DNA of 64,000 bases, from the NCBI GenBank assembly GCA_903901045.1, contig CAIUPP010000138.1:1-64000 (forward strand), read 5' to 3'. This document shows, piece after piece, positions 20,524 through 39,630 of this stretch; position 1 is the first letter of the stretch; the number at the start of each line of letters is the position of its first letter. Source of the DNA: an uncultured Planctomycetota bacterium. GTDB lineage: Bacteria; Planctomycetota; Brocadiia; CAIUPP01. Below the pieces are notes generated by a model. That model was given only the letters and a program-made list of their open reading frames with translations, did no database searches and had not been told where the DNA came from. A program made the translations under genes and the position numbers.

Positions 20524-20652
20524 GGACGGCGATTTGCGATTACTGATTTCTGATTACTGAATTGTGATTTGACGGCGACAACAAGCGCGCTGGGACAGCG
20601 CGCTCCACCATTCTGCACTCTGCGTTCTGCGCTCTGCATTCTGCATTCCGTC
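20524..20652. repeat. Two heptamer repeat types in a phage spacer
   Basis: GATTTGCGATTACTGATTTC-type heptamers at 20526-20568 are followed by CTGCACTCTGCGTTCTGCGC-type heptamers at 20609-20650, with a GCGCGCTGGGACAGCGCGCTCC hairpin between them. This fills the whole gap between the tail tube and chaperone genes. Confidence 0.6.
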
Positions 20653-23154: not shown

Positions 23155-23300
23155 CGGATGATTTGCGATTACTGAATAGCGATTTGCGATTTGAACGGTC
23201 TCTTGCGAAGAGCGGTTGCATGTCTCCACAGGTCCGCCGCGAACGCTCGACGGGCTGAAGCCCGTCGCTACTCACAACAACTGGGCGCAGCATGCTGCGC
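23155..23300. repeat. Heptamers and palindromes between connector and glycosyltransferase
   Basis: The spacer contains ATTTGCGATTACTGAATAGC heptamers, a CGGGCTGAAGCCCG hairpin (about 23250) and GCGCAGCATGCTGCGCCCC (about 23285), a copy of the GCATGC-centred palindrome family that is also found inside the protease gene. Confidence 0.6.
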
Positions 23301-23302
23301 CC

Positions 23303-24388
23303 CTACGCCGGTTGAACACGGCCTTCGGCGCACTGGCTCGCGCCCAGGCCATCGCCCTCTATTTCCCGCAGCGCGCGGAGAAGGCGGAAGGCGGCGTGCG
23401 CCCAGGTGAAGCGGCGGCGGACGTGCTCGGCGGCGCGGCGGCCGATCTGCCCGATGCGCCGCGGGTGCTGCCTGGCCCAGAGGATTTTCGCGGCAAGGTC
23501 GGCGACGTCCGGCTCGACGGCCCGGAGGAGCAGGTCGCAGTTGCCATGCGGCGAGAGCAGGCGAAACTTGCGGCCGGGCGTCGCGCGCAGCGGGATGGCG
23601 CAGCGCTCATCGGCCAGGTCCAGGAGCGAGGTGCAAGGGGTGTACAGGGCGGGGAGCCCGCAGGCCATCGCCTCGCCCAGGGTGAAACCGAACCCCTCCC
23701 CCATGCTCGGGAGAGCGAAGAGGTCCGCGCTCTGATACAACTCGCGCAATGCGGCGATGCCGAGGTCGCGGCTGTCGAAGATGACGTTACCCGCGCGCTC
23801 AAGCCGGTTGGTGCCGGTGGTCTTCATGTAAAGCTCGTAGCCGGGGACGTTCTGAAACGCGCGCCAGGCACCGAGGAGAAATTGGTACCCCTTGCGGTCG
23901 TTCGGCGCGCCGACCCAGAGGACGCGGAAGGCGCGACGGCCCAACGGCCGCGGACCGGGATAGAAGCTCTCCACGTCCACTCCCTGCGGGACGTACAGGA
24001 CCGGGACGGGGACGAGCTTCTTGAAGACGGGCACGAGGAAGCGCGCGGTGACGAAGATGGCGTCGGCGCCCTGGTGGAGCGCGCTGTCCTCAGCGCGCTC
24101 GGCGCCGCAGCAAGCCGGCTGGGGACAGCCGGCTCCACCACGACCTGGGGTAAGCGTGGCGCTCTCCCATTCCGGGAGTTCGGGGAATTCCCACGCGGTC
24201 CAGAGGACGTTGCAGCGCCCCGGGATCGGCCGGAAGGCGTGCGGCGGACAATGGTGCAGCGCGAGCGGGGCGTCGGGGTCGAGGCGGACGCCCGCCATCT
24301 CCAGGCAGCGACGCCCCCAGCGGTTGCCCTGGGTGTAGCCATAGGCATCGCCGATGCCCTGAACGTCGGTTGCCCAGGCGATTCTCAT
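23303..24388 (-). CDS. GT4-type glycosyltransferase within the head-gene cluster
   Basis: About 361 residues with a GT-B fold. The C-terminal nucleotide-sugar domain is clear: FRVLWVGAPNDRKG, then ADLFALPSMGEGFGFTLGEAMACGLP with the E-x7-E motif. It lies between capsid and connector genes on the same strand, so it is cargo or decorates virion or host surface. Residues about 85-110 (PACCGAERAEDSALHQG) come from two host palindromes inserted in frame at 24077-24139. The ATG at 24388 begins MRIAWATDVQG; an upstream ATG would add 20 low-complexity residues. Confidence 0.75.
   Translation of the reverse strand: MRIAWATDVQGIGDAYGYTQGNRWGRRCLEMAGVRLDPDAPLALHHCPPHAFRPIPGRCNVLWTAWEFPELPEWESATLTPGRGGAGCPQPACCGAERAEDSALHQGADAIFVTARFLVPVFKKLVPVPVLYVPQGVDVESFYPGPRPLGRRAFRVLWVGAPNDRKGYQFLLGAWRAFQNVPGYELYMKTTGTNRLERAGNVIFDSRDLGIAALRELYQSADLFALPSMGEGFGFTLGEAMACGLPALYTPCTSLLDLADERCAIPLRATPGRKFRLLSPHGNCDLLLRAVEPDVADLAAKILWARQHPRRIGQIGRRAAEHVRRRFTWAHAAFRLLRALREIEGDGLGASQCAEGRVQPA
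24077..24139. repeat. Two palindromes inside the glycosyltransferase gene
   Basis: GAGCGCGCTGTCCTCAGCGC (24077-24100) and GCCGGCTGGGGACAGCCGGC (24115-24134) are members of the GCTG(A/T)GGACAGC-centred family that also occurs three times near 25.7 kb. The reading frame is kept through both. Confidence 0.7.
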
Positions 24389-24525
24389 GTCATGCCTCGG
24401 AAAGAAATGGACGGAGATGGACGAACACGGACTGACACGGACAGGCACGGAGGACAGCGGAGGTTCGTGGCGTAATATTCACGTTGCCGTCCTCCGTGTC
24501 TCCGTGCCCCCGTGGTGAGCCGCTG

Positions 24526-25647
24526 TTACGACGGAACGGTGAATGCGCCGGATTTGCGGAAGGCGTCGGCCTGGGCGACCTTGCCGTCCACGCGCTCGAT
24601 GACCTTGATTCCGAGCTGATGCTTGCGGAAGGTCTCGCCGCCGGTGGTGGTGGTTTCAATCAGCATGCGCTGCCGGTCGAACCAGGCGTACTTGGCCAGG
24701 TTGCCGAAGAAGATCAGGCCGTCGGCGAGGTCGGCCTGGGTGCTGTAAGGCTTGCCGAGCAGCAGGCTGGGGGCGTCGGCAATGAGCGGGTCGCGCAGGA
24801 TGGGCATCTTCTGCTCATCCTTGATGCGCAGGCACCAGGAGAGGGTATTCTCGCTCATGACCCAGCGCGCGGCGGCGTGATGCTTGCGCGGGAGGGCGAA
24901 CTTCAGCGCGAGGAGCTTGTCGTAGCTGATCGCTCCGCTGCAGCCGTCCACGGCGGCGATGCCGGAGGCGCTGACGAGCCCCTCGGGCTGGCCGTCGCCG
25001 TCGCCGACGCAGATCTTCTTGTCGCGCTCGGCGGCGATGGCTTCGGCGAAGAGCTGCTGGACGGTGTCCACGATGCCGGGGTTGGCGTCGTCCACCAGTT
25101 CGCGGGAGATGAAGGTGACGGCGCTCATGCCGGCGATGGCCCAGTCGACGTGGCCGAAGACCGGGTCGGCGATGTCGATGTCCTCATTCTCGGCGCGGCC
25201 CCAGGTGATGCTGACGCCGGTGGCGAGGGTGGGGAAGTCGCCGGTGTCGGTGATGACGGGGACCTTGCGGACGTACGGGAAGACTTCGGAGAGCTCGGGG
25301 ACGAGCTGCTCCAGTTCGGCCTGGTAGCCCGGGGGCGCCAGGTAGCCGCCGGCGGTGGCGGAGCCTTCGGAGAGGGCCTTGACGACGGCGTCGTCCAGGT
25401 CGGCGCGAGGGTTGATGCCGAGCTTGAGGATGCCGAGCAGGTAGGCGCGCTCGAAACGGCGCTTCTCCTCGGAGGGGGCCAGCGGCGCGCCGCCGAAGAG
25501 CCCCGCTTTGCGGGCGACTTTGTCCAGGCCGCGATCGCGGACGGCCTTTTCGACCGCGTCGGTCACGATCCCCTGGAGGTTCTCCGAGAGGCTGACCTGC
25601 GCGGCGATTTTCGACGCGAGGGCGTCGAGTTCCTTGTTCTCTTCCAT
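24526..25647 (-). CDS. HK97-type major capsid protein
   Basis: About 373 residues. An N-terminal helical scaffold-like delta region (ELDALASKIAAQVSLSENLQ) precedes the HK97 fold, seen in TAGGYLAPPGYQAELEQLVPE, a P-loop and A-domain with VPVITDTGDFP, and FGNLAKYAWFDRQRMLIETT near the C-terminus. The ATG at 25647 follows GGGAG; an upstream extension would only translate palindromic repeats. It forms the icosahedral shell. Confidence 0.9.
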   Translation of the reverse strand: MEENKELDALASKIAAQVSLSENLQGIVTDAVEKAVRDRGLDKVARKAGLFGGAPLAPSEEKRRFERAYLLGILKLGINPRADLDDAVVKALSEGSATAGGYLAPPGYQAELEQLVPELSEVFPYVRKVPVITDTGDFPTLATGVSITWGRAENEDIDIADPVFGHVDWAIAGMSAVTFISRELVDDANPGIVDTVQQLFAEAIAAERDKKICVGDGDGQPEGLVSASGIAAVDGCSGAISYDKLLALKFALPRKHHAAARWVMSENTLSWCLRIKDEQKMPILRDPLIADAPSLLLGKPYSTQADLADGLIFFGNLAKYAWFDRQRMLIETTTTGGETFRKHQLGIKVIERVDGKVAQADAFRKSGAFTVPS

Positions 25648-25659
25648 TGGGTTCTCCCT

Positions 25660-25782
25660 TGTGGTGGAGCGCGCTGTCCTCAGCGCGCTCGGCAAAACGG
25701 CGAACAACAAACGCGCTGTCCTCAGCGCGCCCGGCAAAAACGGCGGACAACAAGCGCGCTGAGGACAGCGCGCTCCACCATA
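25660..25782. repeat. Triple palindrome array upstream of the capsid gene
   Basis: Three palindromes with core GCGCTG-CC-CAGCGC (about 25667-25692, 25711-25733 and 25753-25777) lie in the capsid leader, the third in opposite orientation. Each can form a hairpin and the outer two can pair with each other. Confidence 0.7.
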
Positions 25783-25813
25783 CGACAGATCGGACGGATT
25801 GGACGGATACGGC

Positions 25814-26662
25814 TCAGGCGCGGCCCATGCGGCGGTTCAGTTCGGCGCGGATGAGTTCACTCACGACGCTCCGGAGACGCGCCCGCATTCGGGCGGCGAC
25901 CTCCTGCGCGCGGGTCTCGATCCAGGCGCGGTCGAATCCGGGCACGGTTTCCTTCTCGCCTGCCCGCGATGCGGCGGGCTCGGGCGGGGTTTCGGGCGGC
26001 ACGGCAACGGCTATGGGCGCAGCATGCTGCGCCCCTACGGCAGCAGATAACGCTTGCTCTACCGGGAGCAAGGCATGCCTTGCCCCTACAAGAGCGGGCG
26101 CGAGGCCCAGAGATTTGATCAGGCTGCGGTGGGTGAGGAGTCCATCGCGCAGGGCGTTGCTGAGCGCTTCGGGGTTGGCAGGGATGGGGACGCCGGAGAA
26201 TTCGAGCAGCTCCCAGCGGGTGATGCGGTAGCCGAGCAGCGCGCCCTTTTCGTCGCGGCGCTCGGTCCACTCGATGGGGCGGAAGCCGATGCTCCAGCCG
26301 CGCAGGTAGCCGCGCCGATAGAGTTCGGCGACCTGCCCGGCGAAGTCGGTGGGGGCCCAGAGGACGCTGGCGCGCAGGGAGTTGCCCTCGACGCGCACCC
26401 GCTCGGCGCGCCCGATGGGAAGGTTGCGGTAGTCGTGCGCCCACATGACGACGGGGTTGCGCTGGAACGCCTCCAGGTCGACGCCGCCGGGCTCGACGAT
26501 GTCCCCGTGCCGGTCGATGGAGTCGGTGGAGATGGTGACGTCCAGGCGGCCGTCTTCCTGCGGGACGGCGCATGAGAGCACCGGCAGGGCCAGGTTGCCG
26601 CGACCGGTGCGCTTGAGGCCGTGGGAGACGGCCCAGGCGGTGAGTTCGGAGAGGTTGGGCAT
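25814..26662 (-). CDS. HK97-family prohead protease
   Basis: About 282 residues. The U35 protease signature is present: STDSIDRHGDIVEPGGVDL, PVVMWAHDYRNLPIG with the catalytic His, and WELLEFSGVPIPANPEAL with the Ser region. It cleaves the capsid delta domain. After residue 185 the text LVGARHALLPVEQ and AAVGAQHAAPI derives from two host palindromes at 26015-26083, kept in frame. The C-terminal linker is Pro/Ala rich. The ATG at 26662 follows AAGGATT. Confidence 0.87.
   Translation of the reverse strand: MPNLSELTAWAVSHGLKRTGRGNLALPVLSCAVPQEDGRLDVTISTDSIDRHGDIVEPGGVDLEAFQRNPVVMWAHDYRNLPIGRAERVRVEGNSLRASVLWAPTDFAGQVAELYRRGYLRGWSIGFRPIEWTERRDEKGALLGYRITRWELLEFSGVPIPANPEALSNALRDGLLTHRSLIKSLGLAPALVGARHALLPVEQALSAAVGAQHAAPIAVAVPPETPPEPAASRAGEKETVPGFDRAWIETRAQEVAARMRARLRSVVSELIRAELNRRMGRA
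26015..26083. repeat. Two GCATGC-centred palindromes inside the protease gene
   Basis: GGGCGCAGCATGCTGCGCCC (26015-26034) and GCAAGGCATGCCTTGC (26068-26083), each followed by CCCTAC, as in their intergenic copies near 23285 and 12000. Confidence 0.75.
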
Positions 26663-26723
26663 GGGGGAATCCTTAAAGGACTGCAAGGACTACAAGGACT
26701 GCAACGACAACGGCGGGGAGGCG

Positions 26724-27911
26724 CTACTCGCGCTCCGGCACTCTGTTGACCGGCACGTAAAACCTGTCCCCCTGACCCACCTGCTCGTAGCCTCCTTCGG
26801 CGCGCGCCTCGTTGCGCGTGAGCAGGCCGGCCTGGAAGTCCTCGCGCGCCATGCGGCGCTGGGACTCGCGGTCCGCGGGGACGGGGGATTCGAATTGGAC
26901 GGTGAGCGCGGGATCGAAACGTGGCATGAGATCCTGGTTGATCTGGTCGGTGATGAGTTGCAGCAGCGGGGCGACGCAGTAGCGCGCGAAGATGGTGTCC
27001 ATGGCATCGGCGACGGCGCGGTTGACGTCCTGCGAGAGGCCGATGACGGCGGCGGGGACGCCGAAGATGGCGAGGATCTCGTCGCGCGCCAGTTGGGCGG
27101 ATTCGGCGAAGGCCATTTCGCTGGGGGTGAGGGTGATCTGTTTGGCTTTGAGCCCGGCTTCGAGGACGAGCCACTTGCCGGCGTTGTCGGCGCCGGAGTA
27201 CTTCAACTCCATCTGCGCGCGAAGGCGGGAGATGGCGGCATCGTCCAAGCGCGAGTCGGATTCGAGGACGCCGCCGGGCCAGGCGCCGCGGCGCATGAGC
27301 TGGCGCTGGACGCATTTCATCGCCTCGTGGCTGTCCACCGTCTCGGCGGCGGCCTGGAGCGGCCCCTGCCCGTAGTACAGGTCGGCGGGGTTGGGGAGGC
27401 GCAGGTGGATGATTTCGTCGCGGCCGAAGGAGACGGTGCGCCCGCCCTGCGTGTACTCGTAGCCGGCGATGAAGTCGCGGCTGTCGGGGAGGACGCGCAT
27501 TCCCTGCGAGGGGCAAACCCAGATTTCCGCGGGCGCGCCGAGGCCGTTGCGCGGGACGTACCAGTACGCGTTGCCGGTGAGCTCGAGGAAGGTGATGGTC
27601 TGCGACCAGAGCCAGTAGCGGGTGTGGAAGGGATTGACGGTGTTGAAGAGGCGGAGGGCCGGATGGGCGGGGTCGGTGATTTCCGTCAGGCCGCCCCCCT
27701 CGCTCCGATAGACGCACAACGGGGTGGCGGCAACGCGGTTGGCGATGGTGCGGACGGCGGCGAAGACCCAGTGGCGGAAGTGACGCACCTGCTCGGAGGG
27801 GTCGTCCGCCCAGGCGGCGGGCCGCCCGGATTGGAAGAAGGGGATGAGCGCGGCGCGGAAACGGCCTTCGGGCGCGGCGGATTTGCGGCGGAGCCAGTTG
27901 AGGAGGTTCAT
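26724..27911 (-). CDS. HK97-type portal protein
   Basis: 395 residues. VFAAVRTIANRVAATPLCVY, ITFLELTGNAYWYVPRN and ILAIFGVPAAVIGLSQDVNR, then NQDLMPRF, are conserved portal segments. It forms the dodecameric DNA channel of the head and binds terminase and connector. Confidence 0.92.
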   Translation of the reverse strand: MNLLNWLRRKSAAPEGRFRAALIPFFQSGRPAAWADDPSEQVRHFRHWVFAAVRTIANRVAATPLCVYRSEGGGLTEITDPAHPALRLFNTVNPFHTRYWLWSQTITFLELTGNAYWYVPRNGLGAPAEIWVCPSQGMRVLPDSRDFIAGYEYTQGGRTVSFGRDEIIHLRLPNPADLYYGQGPLQAAAETVDSHEAMKCVQRQLMRRGAWPGGVLESDSRLDDAAISRLRAQMELKYSGADNAGKWLVLEAGLKAKQITLTPSEMAFAESAQLARDEILAIFGVPAAVIGLSQDVNRAVADAMDTIFARYCVAPLLQLITDQINQDLMPRFDPALTVQFESPVPADRESQRRMAREDFQAGLLTRNEARAEGGYEQVGQGDRFYVPVNRVPERE

Positions 27912-27939
27912 AGGGGTCTCTCAACAAAAGAAGGGAAAC

Positions 27940-28115
27940 GGCGATTTGCGATTGCTCGGGAGCGCTTGCGCGCCCCTCTTGATTACTGATTTGCGATGTA
28001 CGAATTGAACGACCCCCTGTAACTGGGGTTTGCGCGTAATGCCGGCATCATTCTGAAATCGCAAGTCACAGGTGCGCCATGCGCACCGCGTAATCGCCAA
28101 TCGCAAATCGTCCGT
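27940..28115. repeat. Heptamer repeats between terminase and portal genes
   Basis: GATTTGCGATT/GATTACTGATT heptamers and a GGTGCGCCATGCGCACC hairpin (about 28070) fill this spacer. I see no gene here. Confidence 0.55.
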
Positions 28116-28118
28116 GCT

Positions 28119-29555
28119 TCATAGCCATATTGCGCGCGGTTCCGGCGGAGCGGGGACGAAGGTCAGCGCGAGGGCGTCGGCAAGGTCGGGGGAGCGGCCG
28201 AGGCGGGCGCGGATTTCGTCCTTCCCCTCCAGGCGAATCTGCCCGCGGCTCGTGTAGGAGAAACGCGGGGCGATGCATTCCGCCGCGAGCGCGTCGCTGC
28301 CGGGGGGCAGCGCGAGAGGCCGATCCGCGCCGCCGTCCGAGAACGGGGTAAGGCATGCCTTACCCCTACGCGAGCGAGCGTCGTTGTCCGTTGTAGGGTC
28401 AAGGCATGCCTTGACCCTACTCTCAGAAAGACCCCGCACCGGGTCCAGCGCTTCGCGCAGCAGCCAGTAGCACTCGGCGCGGACGTTGGCGAAGCGGTCC
28501 GCCTCCACGGCGCGCCCGGCCATGTTCACCGCGACGGCGGCGAACCCCTGCTCGCGCAACCGGTCGGTGACGCCCCCACCCAGGCCGGTGTCATCGATGC
28601 GCACGCGGCGCGCGGGGATGGCCTGCTCGCGGGCCAGCGCCAGCAGCGCGCCCGCCGTGGCCATCGTGTCCTGCCCCTGCCGCGCGACGACATGCCGCAG
28701 CGCGTACCGGTCGCGCAGGATCATCACCGTGCGGTCGGAGCCGAAGCGCGCCACGTCCACTCCCAGCACCTGGCTATCGCGATCCAGCGGGGGAATCTCT
28801 CGCCTCATGGCTTCCTCCACCCAGCCCAGCGGAATGAGGCAATCCTCCCCCTCCGCGGGGAACTCGCCCAGCACGCGGCTGGCGTAGGCGGCGGAACCGG
28901 CCCCCCACTGCGCGCGCTGCGCCTCGATCCACTCGGCCGTGACCAGCCCCGGCACCACCTCGCGCCGCTCGATGACGTTCGGCGAATCGGCGCAGGAGAT
29001 GTGCAGCCGCTCGAAACCGCTGCCGGGCTTGTGCGAGTCGTAGAAGAAGCCGCTGGGCGACACGGGGTTGCCAATGAGCAGCAGCCGGCTGTTGCGGCTG
29101 GTGAGCAGCCCCATGACGGCTTCATAGATTTCCGCCGGCACCCCTCCGGCCTCGTCGACGATGACCAGGATGTTCTCGCAGTGCAGCCCCTGAAGCCGCT
29201 GCGGCTCGTTGGTGCTGAAGCCGAAGGCGCGGCGGCAGTCGGTGAGGCGGATTTCCGTGCGGTTGACCTGGCCGACGCCCCGGTCCGCGAACTGCGTGCG
29301 CTGCCAGAGGCGGCGGATTTCCGGCCAGAGCACGTCGCGCACCTGGCGGAAGGTGGGCGCGGTGGTGGTGACCAGCACGGGGGTGTGCTCGGCAAGGAAC
29401 CAGACCGCGGCGACCGCGGCGGCGTGCGTTTTGCCGACCCCATGCCCGCTGCGGACCGTGACGCGCGGATGCCGCTCGATGGCGCGCAACACATCGCATT
29501 GCCGTTCCCAGAGCGTGTCAAGTTCAATCCCCCTGGCGAATTCAAGCGGACCCAC
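28119..29555 (-). CDS. Terminase large subunit
   Basis: About 478 residues. The ATPase domain has Walker A SGHGVGKT and Walker B ILVIVDEAGG; the RNase H-like nuclease starts at LGVDVARFGSDRT with further acidic residues in RIDDTGLGGGVTDR. It pumps and cuts phage DNA. A GTG at 29555 preceded by GGAGG is the likely start. Two palindromes at 28345-28420 are read in frame as RVKACLDPTTDN and SRRGKACLTPF in a loop of the nuclease domain. Confidence 0.9.
   Translation of the reverse strand: MGPLEFARGIELDTLWERQCDVLRAIERHPRVTVRSGHGVGKTHAAAVAAVWFLAEHTPVLVTTTAPTFRQVRDVLWPEIRRLWQRTQFADRGVGQVNRTEIRLTDCRRAFGFSTNEPQRLQGLHCENILVIVDEAGGVPAEIYEAVMGLLTSRNSRLLLIGNPVSPSGFFYDSHKPGSGFERLHISCADSPNVIERREVVPGLVTAEWIEAQRAQWGAGSAAYASRVLGEFPAEGEDCLIPLGWVEEAMRREIPPLDRDSQVLGVDVARFGSDRTVMILRDRYALRHVVARQGQDTMATAGALLALAREQAIPARRVRIDDTGLGGGVTDRLREQGFAAVAVNMAGRAVEADRFANVRAECYWLLREALDPVRGLSESRVKACLDPTTDNDARSRRGKACLTPFSDGGADRPLALPPGSDALAAECIAPRFSYTSRGQIRLEGKDEIRARLGRSPDLADALALTFVPAPPEPRAIWL
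28345..28420. repeat. Two GCATGC-centred palindromes inside the terminase gene
   Basis: GGGGTAAGGCATGCCTTACC (28345-28366) and a 28-base palindrome from GTAGGGTCAAGGCATG to CCTTGACCCTAC (28393-28420). They are perfect palindromes and lie within an open reading frame. Confidence 0.78.
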
Positions 29556-29701
29556 GCACGACCTCCGGGCACCACGGAAACAACGGGGCTCTCGCAAAGA
29601 CGCTAAGACGCAAAGAACGGCGGGGCTGGGTTACGGACAGGACGGCAGGTTTCGTGTTTGAACGTTGGACGTTGAAAGTTGAGAGTTGAAAGTTGAATCC
29701 G

Positions 29702-39544: not shown

Positions 39545-39630
39545 TCTTGCGCGGGCTGAAGCCCGCGCTACACGGCCTTCCCCAAGCATAAAGAGGCGCG
39601 TGTAGCCCGGGCTTTAGCCCGGGCCCTCGG
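39545..39630. repeat. Hairpin pair (GCGGGCTGAAGCCCGC type)
   Basis: GCGGGCTGAAGCCCGCGCTAC (about 39550) and GCCCGGGCTTTAGCCCGGGC (about 39606) lie in the spacer upstream of the MFS gene and before palindrome P1 copy 3. Confidence 0.6.

Follow-up and report, generated by a model that had tools for sequence, protein, structure and literature searches.

Very probably (we put it at about 0.86), mobile palindromes of the repetitive extragenic palindrome (REP) type have inserted from the host chromosome into genes of a resident prophage and of the host itself in an uncultured Planctomycetota bacterium (genome G000, 4.77 Mb), and mainly the frame-preserving copies were left. The analysis started from a 64,000-nt stretch of this genome, contig C138, which is referred to as the window. 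Between 13.8 and 30 kb its minus strand harbors a prophage that is HK97-like, as recognized by profile matches to PHROGs and Pfam. The window contains 16 hairpins with an arm length of at least 9, compared to 1–7 in ten Markov shuffles. Six palindromic units were found within three phage genes, encoding the large terminase, the prohead protease and a glycosyltransferase. Translation is open through each unit without a stop, as the original prediction from the letters of the window had stated.

The description of the palindromes as host repeats was confirmed by two families that occur throughout the genome. Family A consists of a GTAG tag and, behind it, a palindrome of 20 nt, either GGGC-AAGG-CATG-CCTT-GCCC or GGGC-GCAG-CATG-CTGC-GCCC, with AAGG or GCAG as arm variants. 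The unit comprises 24 nt with sharp edges, has an 8-bp stem and a CATG loop, and TT is favoured directly upstream of it. We found 196 matches to the family A pattern GTAGGGNNNNNGCATGC in G000 and one match to the reversed control pattern. GTAG was present at one end of all 96 family A units (the pattern requires it), and a mirrored CTAC was present in 4 of these 96, which are symmetrical 28-mers. A related type in the same genome, A3, consists of GTAG and GGGCTKAAGCCC. Family B (TGGTGGAGC..GCTGTCC, then the other arm) forms a hairpin that has no GTAG tag and is edged by TGGTGG, and it is frequently found as an inverted dimer; its pattern TGGTGGAGCNNGCTGTCC gave 53 matches and the control none. 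In 445,284 bases of G000, 106 hairpins of the window type were counted versus 15–31 in three second-order Markov shuffles, and 834,823 bases (46 pieces) contained 173 units in 119 clusters. Any match to family A was seen in 18 of the 75 genomes of the class, with 14 or fewer in every genome except G000, and there was no match in the sister genus G001. Because of this difference in copy number, the pattern points to a recent burst of family A in the G000 lineage.

The gene for the large terminase (28119–29597, minus strand; phrog_2, E 2e-40) contains two units of type A2. The first (28346–28369, minus strand) consists of GTAG and a GCATGC palindrome located at 28345–28366, and encodes GKACL. 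The second (28393–28420) is a fully symmetrical 28-mer encoding KACLDP. Together they form a tag-to-tag pair with a 23-nt spacer, and the insert amounts to about 36 codons (residues ~387–422). The homologue of G001 (51% identity) is 36 residues shorter exactly at both palindromes, the pair being missing as a single block. Three relatives from IMG/VR (L068, L069, L070) were without 36–40 residues at the palindromes, and the palindrome block was also missing from the terminase of a related prophage in genome G195 (36–38 residues, alignment with G001). In an AlphaFold2 model based on six sequences (mean predicted local distance difference test score, pLDDT, 73), residues 386–426 had a pLDDT below 50, and for this reason the terminase insert is predicted to be a disordered, floppy loop. 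A Foldseek search with this model returned known large terminases, as is ordinary for such a protein.

The glycosyltransferase gene (23303–24448, minus strand; phrog_2170) carries an inverted dimer of family B at 24072–24140. It is built from two GCTG(A/G)GGACAGC hairpins (24077–24100 and 24113–24134) with the TGGTGGAG tags directed outward, and it encodes GGAGCPQPACCGAERAEDSALHQ. The prophage of G195, which carries homologues of the terminase, portal, capsid and protease with 43–48% identity (39–48% with the glycosyltransferase included), has a glycosyltransferase that is 26 residues shorter at the dimer, which is again missing as a single block. With the sister genus, the related prophage and the viral relatives as empty-site references, the alignments identify the palindromes of terminase and glycosyltransferase as in-frame insertions. 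The original prediction had placed them in phage structural genes; the glycosyltransferase is a moron-type gene and not a structural one.

Genes of the host, named according to NCBIfam, gave the same picture. MurD contains REP sequence in frame and 41 residues extra compared to G001, or about 43 compared to PDB 7sir. MnmA with a single REP unit is 12 residues longer than its homologues in G001, G002 and G003, and 10–11 residues longer than PDB homologues. HypF contains two in-frame inserts of 18 and 23 amino acids that are missing in G001. At their REP sites, PrmC has about 22 and a GabT-like aminotransferase has 15 extra residues versus homologues. Altogether 10 sites in 9 genes were compared with homologues, and extra residues were present at 8 of them (terminase, glycosyltransferase, MurD, MnmA, HypF twice, PrmC and the aminotransferase; the other two are protease and LpxK). 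The net inserts of 36, 54, 69, 78, 108–114 and 123 nt all correspond to whole codons, and the added peptides have about 10–43 residues. The insert of PrmC (L053, 1501–1811) also holds an AT-rich tandem stretch, tgatgattgatgatt..., which is translated as INHQSSMIN. Because this stretch lies within the insert, a second kind of repeat has, judged by its sequence, entered the PrmC gene as well.

A census of coding and non-coding copies on the 834,823 bases assigned 27 of the 119 clusters to genes, 81 to intergenic regions and 11 to gene edges. It was done with a home-made gene caller based on a hidden Markov model (HMM), and 19.3% of the sequence was non-coding. As proof of frame this caller was rejected after simulation, and a two-flank test was used instead, in which the 180-nt flanks of the 119 clusters were scored for coding frame independently of each other. 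No confident coding was seen on either flank for 69 clusters and on one flank only for 25. The two flanks were in the same frame in 20 clusters, shifted in 4 and on opposite strands in 1. Simulated frameshifting insertions were scored as same-frame in 4 out of 986 cases. Retention of the frame in 20 of 24 clusters versus one third expected (null ~0.33) gave p = 5e-7, so that the predicted selection for the frame is supported genome-wide. The unit itself was open in 19 of the 20 same-frame clusters and contained a stop in one. Family B clusters showed the frame bias too. Among the in-gene family A units, 12 were in sense and 12 in antisense orientation, and none of the 12 sense units used the phase that exposes TAG.

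Retention of the frame could also result from a fixed element length divisible by three, without any purging of frame-shifted copies, and the family A unit is indeed sharply bounded at 24 nt. This is unlikely, since net inserts vary from 36 to 123 nt and the same bias is seen in family B, whose units differ in length from those of family A. MnmA, where the insert with a single unit has 36 nt, speaks against an exact 24-nt insertion as the reason why frames are kept. Moreover, the share of clusters in genes (27/119) stands against 81% of coding sequence, which argues for purging or for avoidance of genes. The frame bias, the unused TAG phase and the scarcity in genes fit a purging of damaging copies; some of this would also be expected from directed gene avoidance. 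We regard it as very unlikely that the elements are regulatory or transcription-termination hairpins selected in the phage operon, with incidental copies in genes. The 81 intergenic clusters out of 119 would agree with such a function, as would the stop codons that the GTAG tag supplies in the glycosyltransferase and in some genes of the host; the in-gene copies speak against it, as neither the enzymes that hold them nor their positions are related and both orientations occur.

Several observations weigh against frame-preserving insertion of host repeats. There is no close strain among the empty-site references, and the remote terminase relative L067 (34% identity) did not show a clean gap at the site. 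Both protease units (A1 at 26015–26038, encoding VGAQHAAP, and a slightly degenerate A2 at 26066–26089, encoding VGARHALLP; both minus strand) lie beyond the conserved domain. They are located in a C-terminal tail of varying length in 13 relatives, and because of this variation an insertion was not demonstrable here. The refuting condition set with the original prediction, equal-length residues in relatives without the palindromes, did not hold for terminase and glycosyltransferase. MnmA of G195 has a loop of equal length at the REP site, and the alignment of LpxK to its homologues was too poor at the REP site. The HMM caller also labelled 147 of 302 simulated frameshifts as 'inside gene', and four clusters of the two-flank test appear frame-shifted and may be gene junctions. 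Seven transposase genes of the Y1 type were examined in G000, and none of them adjoins a family A or B unit, the nearest A unit being about 1.6 kb away.

A further point of this kind came from one phage glycosyltransferase family in IMG/VR. The exact unit is present in L214 (7042–7065) and L216 (1089–1112) and a degenerate one in L345 (~1874), in all cases in frame at a common loop, and the three proteins are not each other's nearest relatives. The loop with the REP is not longer than in 77 relatives covering the site (mode −1 residue). By this comparison the REP has replaced a loop in this family without lengthening it, which cautions against assuming addition everywhere. The unit may have reached the common loop by repeated insertion, by recombination or by gene conversion. 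That the palindromic stretches are in general native variable linkers resembling repeats, or gene-conversion patches replacing loops of equal length, is nevertheless highly improbable: it holds as replacement in this family and the tail with the protease site varies naturally, but homologues of seven genes are 10–43 residues shorter at the sites, the DNA matches units dispersed in the spacers of the genome, and the homologue gaps refute it for terminase and glycosyltransferase.

Insertions, frame bias, genome-wide families and the near absence of family A from sister genomes were seen directly, and the following course is proposed from them. REP-type palindromes of the host chromosome have inserted into prophage and host genes, probably by means of a RAYT-like (REP-associated tyrosine transposase) enzyme of the Y1 type, and the phage genes would have been hit in the prophage state. 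Most surviving copies lie in intergenic regions. Copies in genes would survive mainly if the net insert has a length divisible by three, makes no stop and is placed in a surface loop or linker; such copies would add about 10–43 residues and leave the gene readable. The frame bias would then be due to purifying selection and not to directed insertion.

G000 contains six matches to Y1_Tnp and six to REP_Tyr_transpos, partly in the same genes. Upstream of a RAYT gene on contig C139 (L187, 3913–4539) lie three A3-type hairpins, so that this gene likely represents a REPtron of G000, and a RAYT-like gene on C29 has a CTAC-flanked hairpin at a distance of 1 bp. Because of the GTAG tag and the known link between REPs and RAYTs, we infer that families A and B are mobilised by a RAYT. 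On C17, a Y1 transposase gene (L192, 4911–5542) has a hairpin on either side, GCAGGGGTT..AACCCCTGC and CGCGTCCC..GGGACGCG, which match each other, an arrangement that resembles a transposase with palindromic ends.

Rickettsia palindromic elements, treated by Ogata et al. in 2002 and by Claverie and Ogata in 2003, are reportedly the classic case of palindromic insertions that keep the frame of many unrelated genes. REPINs, described by Bertels and Rainey in 2011, are said to be non-autonomous intergenic repeats. The repeats of G000 resemble the REPIN/RAYT system in the inverted REP pairs (family B dimers and the terminase pair) and in the presence of RAYT-like genes; they differ in that some units are translated and that no RAYT is found beside family A or B. 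With the Rickettsia elements, to which the original prediction had compared the palindromes, they share the in-frame insertion into many unrelated genes. The analogy applies to behaviour and not to membership: according to PMC3733652, the Rickettsia elements carry a CGTC-class tag and have no linked transposase, whereas family A is tagged by GTAG, family B is edged by TGGTGG, and the genome has RAYTs.

Family A corresponds to the GTAG-tagged REPs, which have a stem of 5–13 bp, a loop of 2–20 nt and a total length of 20–40 bp. They occur there in high copy number as singles, dimers or clusters, are mostly intergenic and are accompanied by RAYT genes in the genome (PMC3733652). Family A shows the tag at one end, stem, loop and length within these limits, and a high interspersed copy number with dimers and clusters, mainly between genes. 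Di Nocera, De Gregorio and Rocco reported GTAG REPs within genes in 2013; more than half of these are dimers or groups encoding 20–30 residues, and the tag frequently supplies a TAG stop (PMC3733652). In-frame copies in genes, stops supplied by the tag and RAYT genes in the genome are likewise shared with G000, while family B differs by its TGGTGG edge. Phage or prophage genes go unmentioned in the accessible part of PMC3733652, and no account of REPs within genes of phages turned up in the literature searched, which mostly did not cover subscription papers. In G000 the insertions lie in a packaging gene and in a glycosyltransferase gene of the phage, and empty-site relatives and a calibrated frame test are at hand. 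REPs in genes are already known. What is less usual is a packaging gene of a phage among the sites, itself a modest addition, along with empty-site controls and a second family whose edges read TGGTGG. With a sister genus free of family A, a related prophage and viral relatives, this is a well-controlled case of tiny mobile palindromes adding peptides to apparently working genes, the packaging motor included. It makes testable how frequently repeats become protein, which loops are tolerant and whether phages transfer REPs between hosts.

The exact A1 24-mer was found in 23 stretches of IMG/VR (19 contigs) and the A2 unit in 6, several of them within long open frames. Because the A1 24-mer is in frame at the common loop of the three phage glycosyltransferases and in other long viral open reading frames (ORFs), temperate phages might be regular hosts and carriers of REPs, with phage genes, chiefly glycosyltransferase loops and linkers, as repeated landing sites and in-frame REPs carried between bacterial lineages; we consider this tentative and rather doubtful. 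Scans of IMG/VR with the glycosyltransferase and the protease of the window gave no relatives, and relatives were obtained from genome searches.

REP units or REP-like peptides are also present in a further viral protein and in a viral protein family. On the viral contig L228, an ORF of 316 amino acids for a family-2 glycosyltransferase (1963–2910) has three in-frame A1 copies. L222 (2882–5479, an ORF of 866 amino acids) and its relatives L236–L313 constitute a viral protein family of about 800–870 amino acids with hypervariable linkers, which had no match in Pfam, PHROGs or PDB. Differing GTAG-REP peptides are present at several linker places in different members, and GTAGCACAGGCTTCAGCCTGTG-type units occur in L274–L277 and L304. 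The search returned 80 loci, 67 rows were aligned, and in 9 of those internal stops were replaced by X. As no empty length is definable, this family was not counted as insertion evidence.

The prophage of the window comprises genes for a tail protein, neck and adaptor proteins, the glycosyltransferase, the capsid, the S78 protease, the portal and the large terminase. The genes for the portal protein (26724–27911, minus strand; PF04860, E 2e-75) and the major capsid protein (24526–25650, minus strand; PF05065, E 5e-44) are free of REPs, and the protease gene (25814–26686, minus strand; PF04586, E 3e-11) carries its two units in the non-conserved tail. The palindromes also occur in spacers, as had been predicted. 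Three family B units are located between the capsid and protease genes (25662–25780), and a family B unit lies in the tail region of the prophage (20581–20610, minus strand). Downstream of the glycosyltransferase, an A1 unit (23283–23306, minus strand) adjoins an A3 unit (23248–23271), and the stop codon TAG of the glycosyltransferase (23303–23305) is part of the GTAG tag of this A1 unit. Outside the phage head-gene cluster, a pair of A3-type GTAG hairpins is present at 39547–39626.

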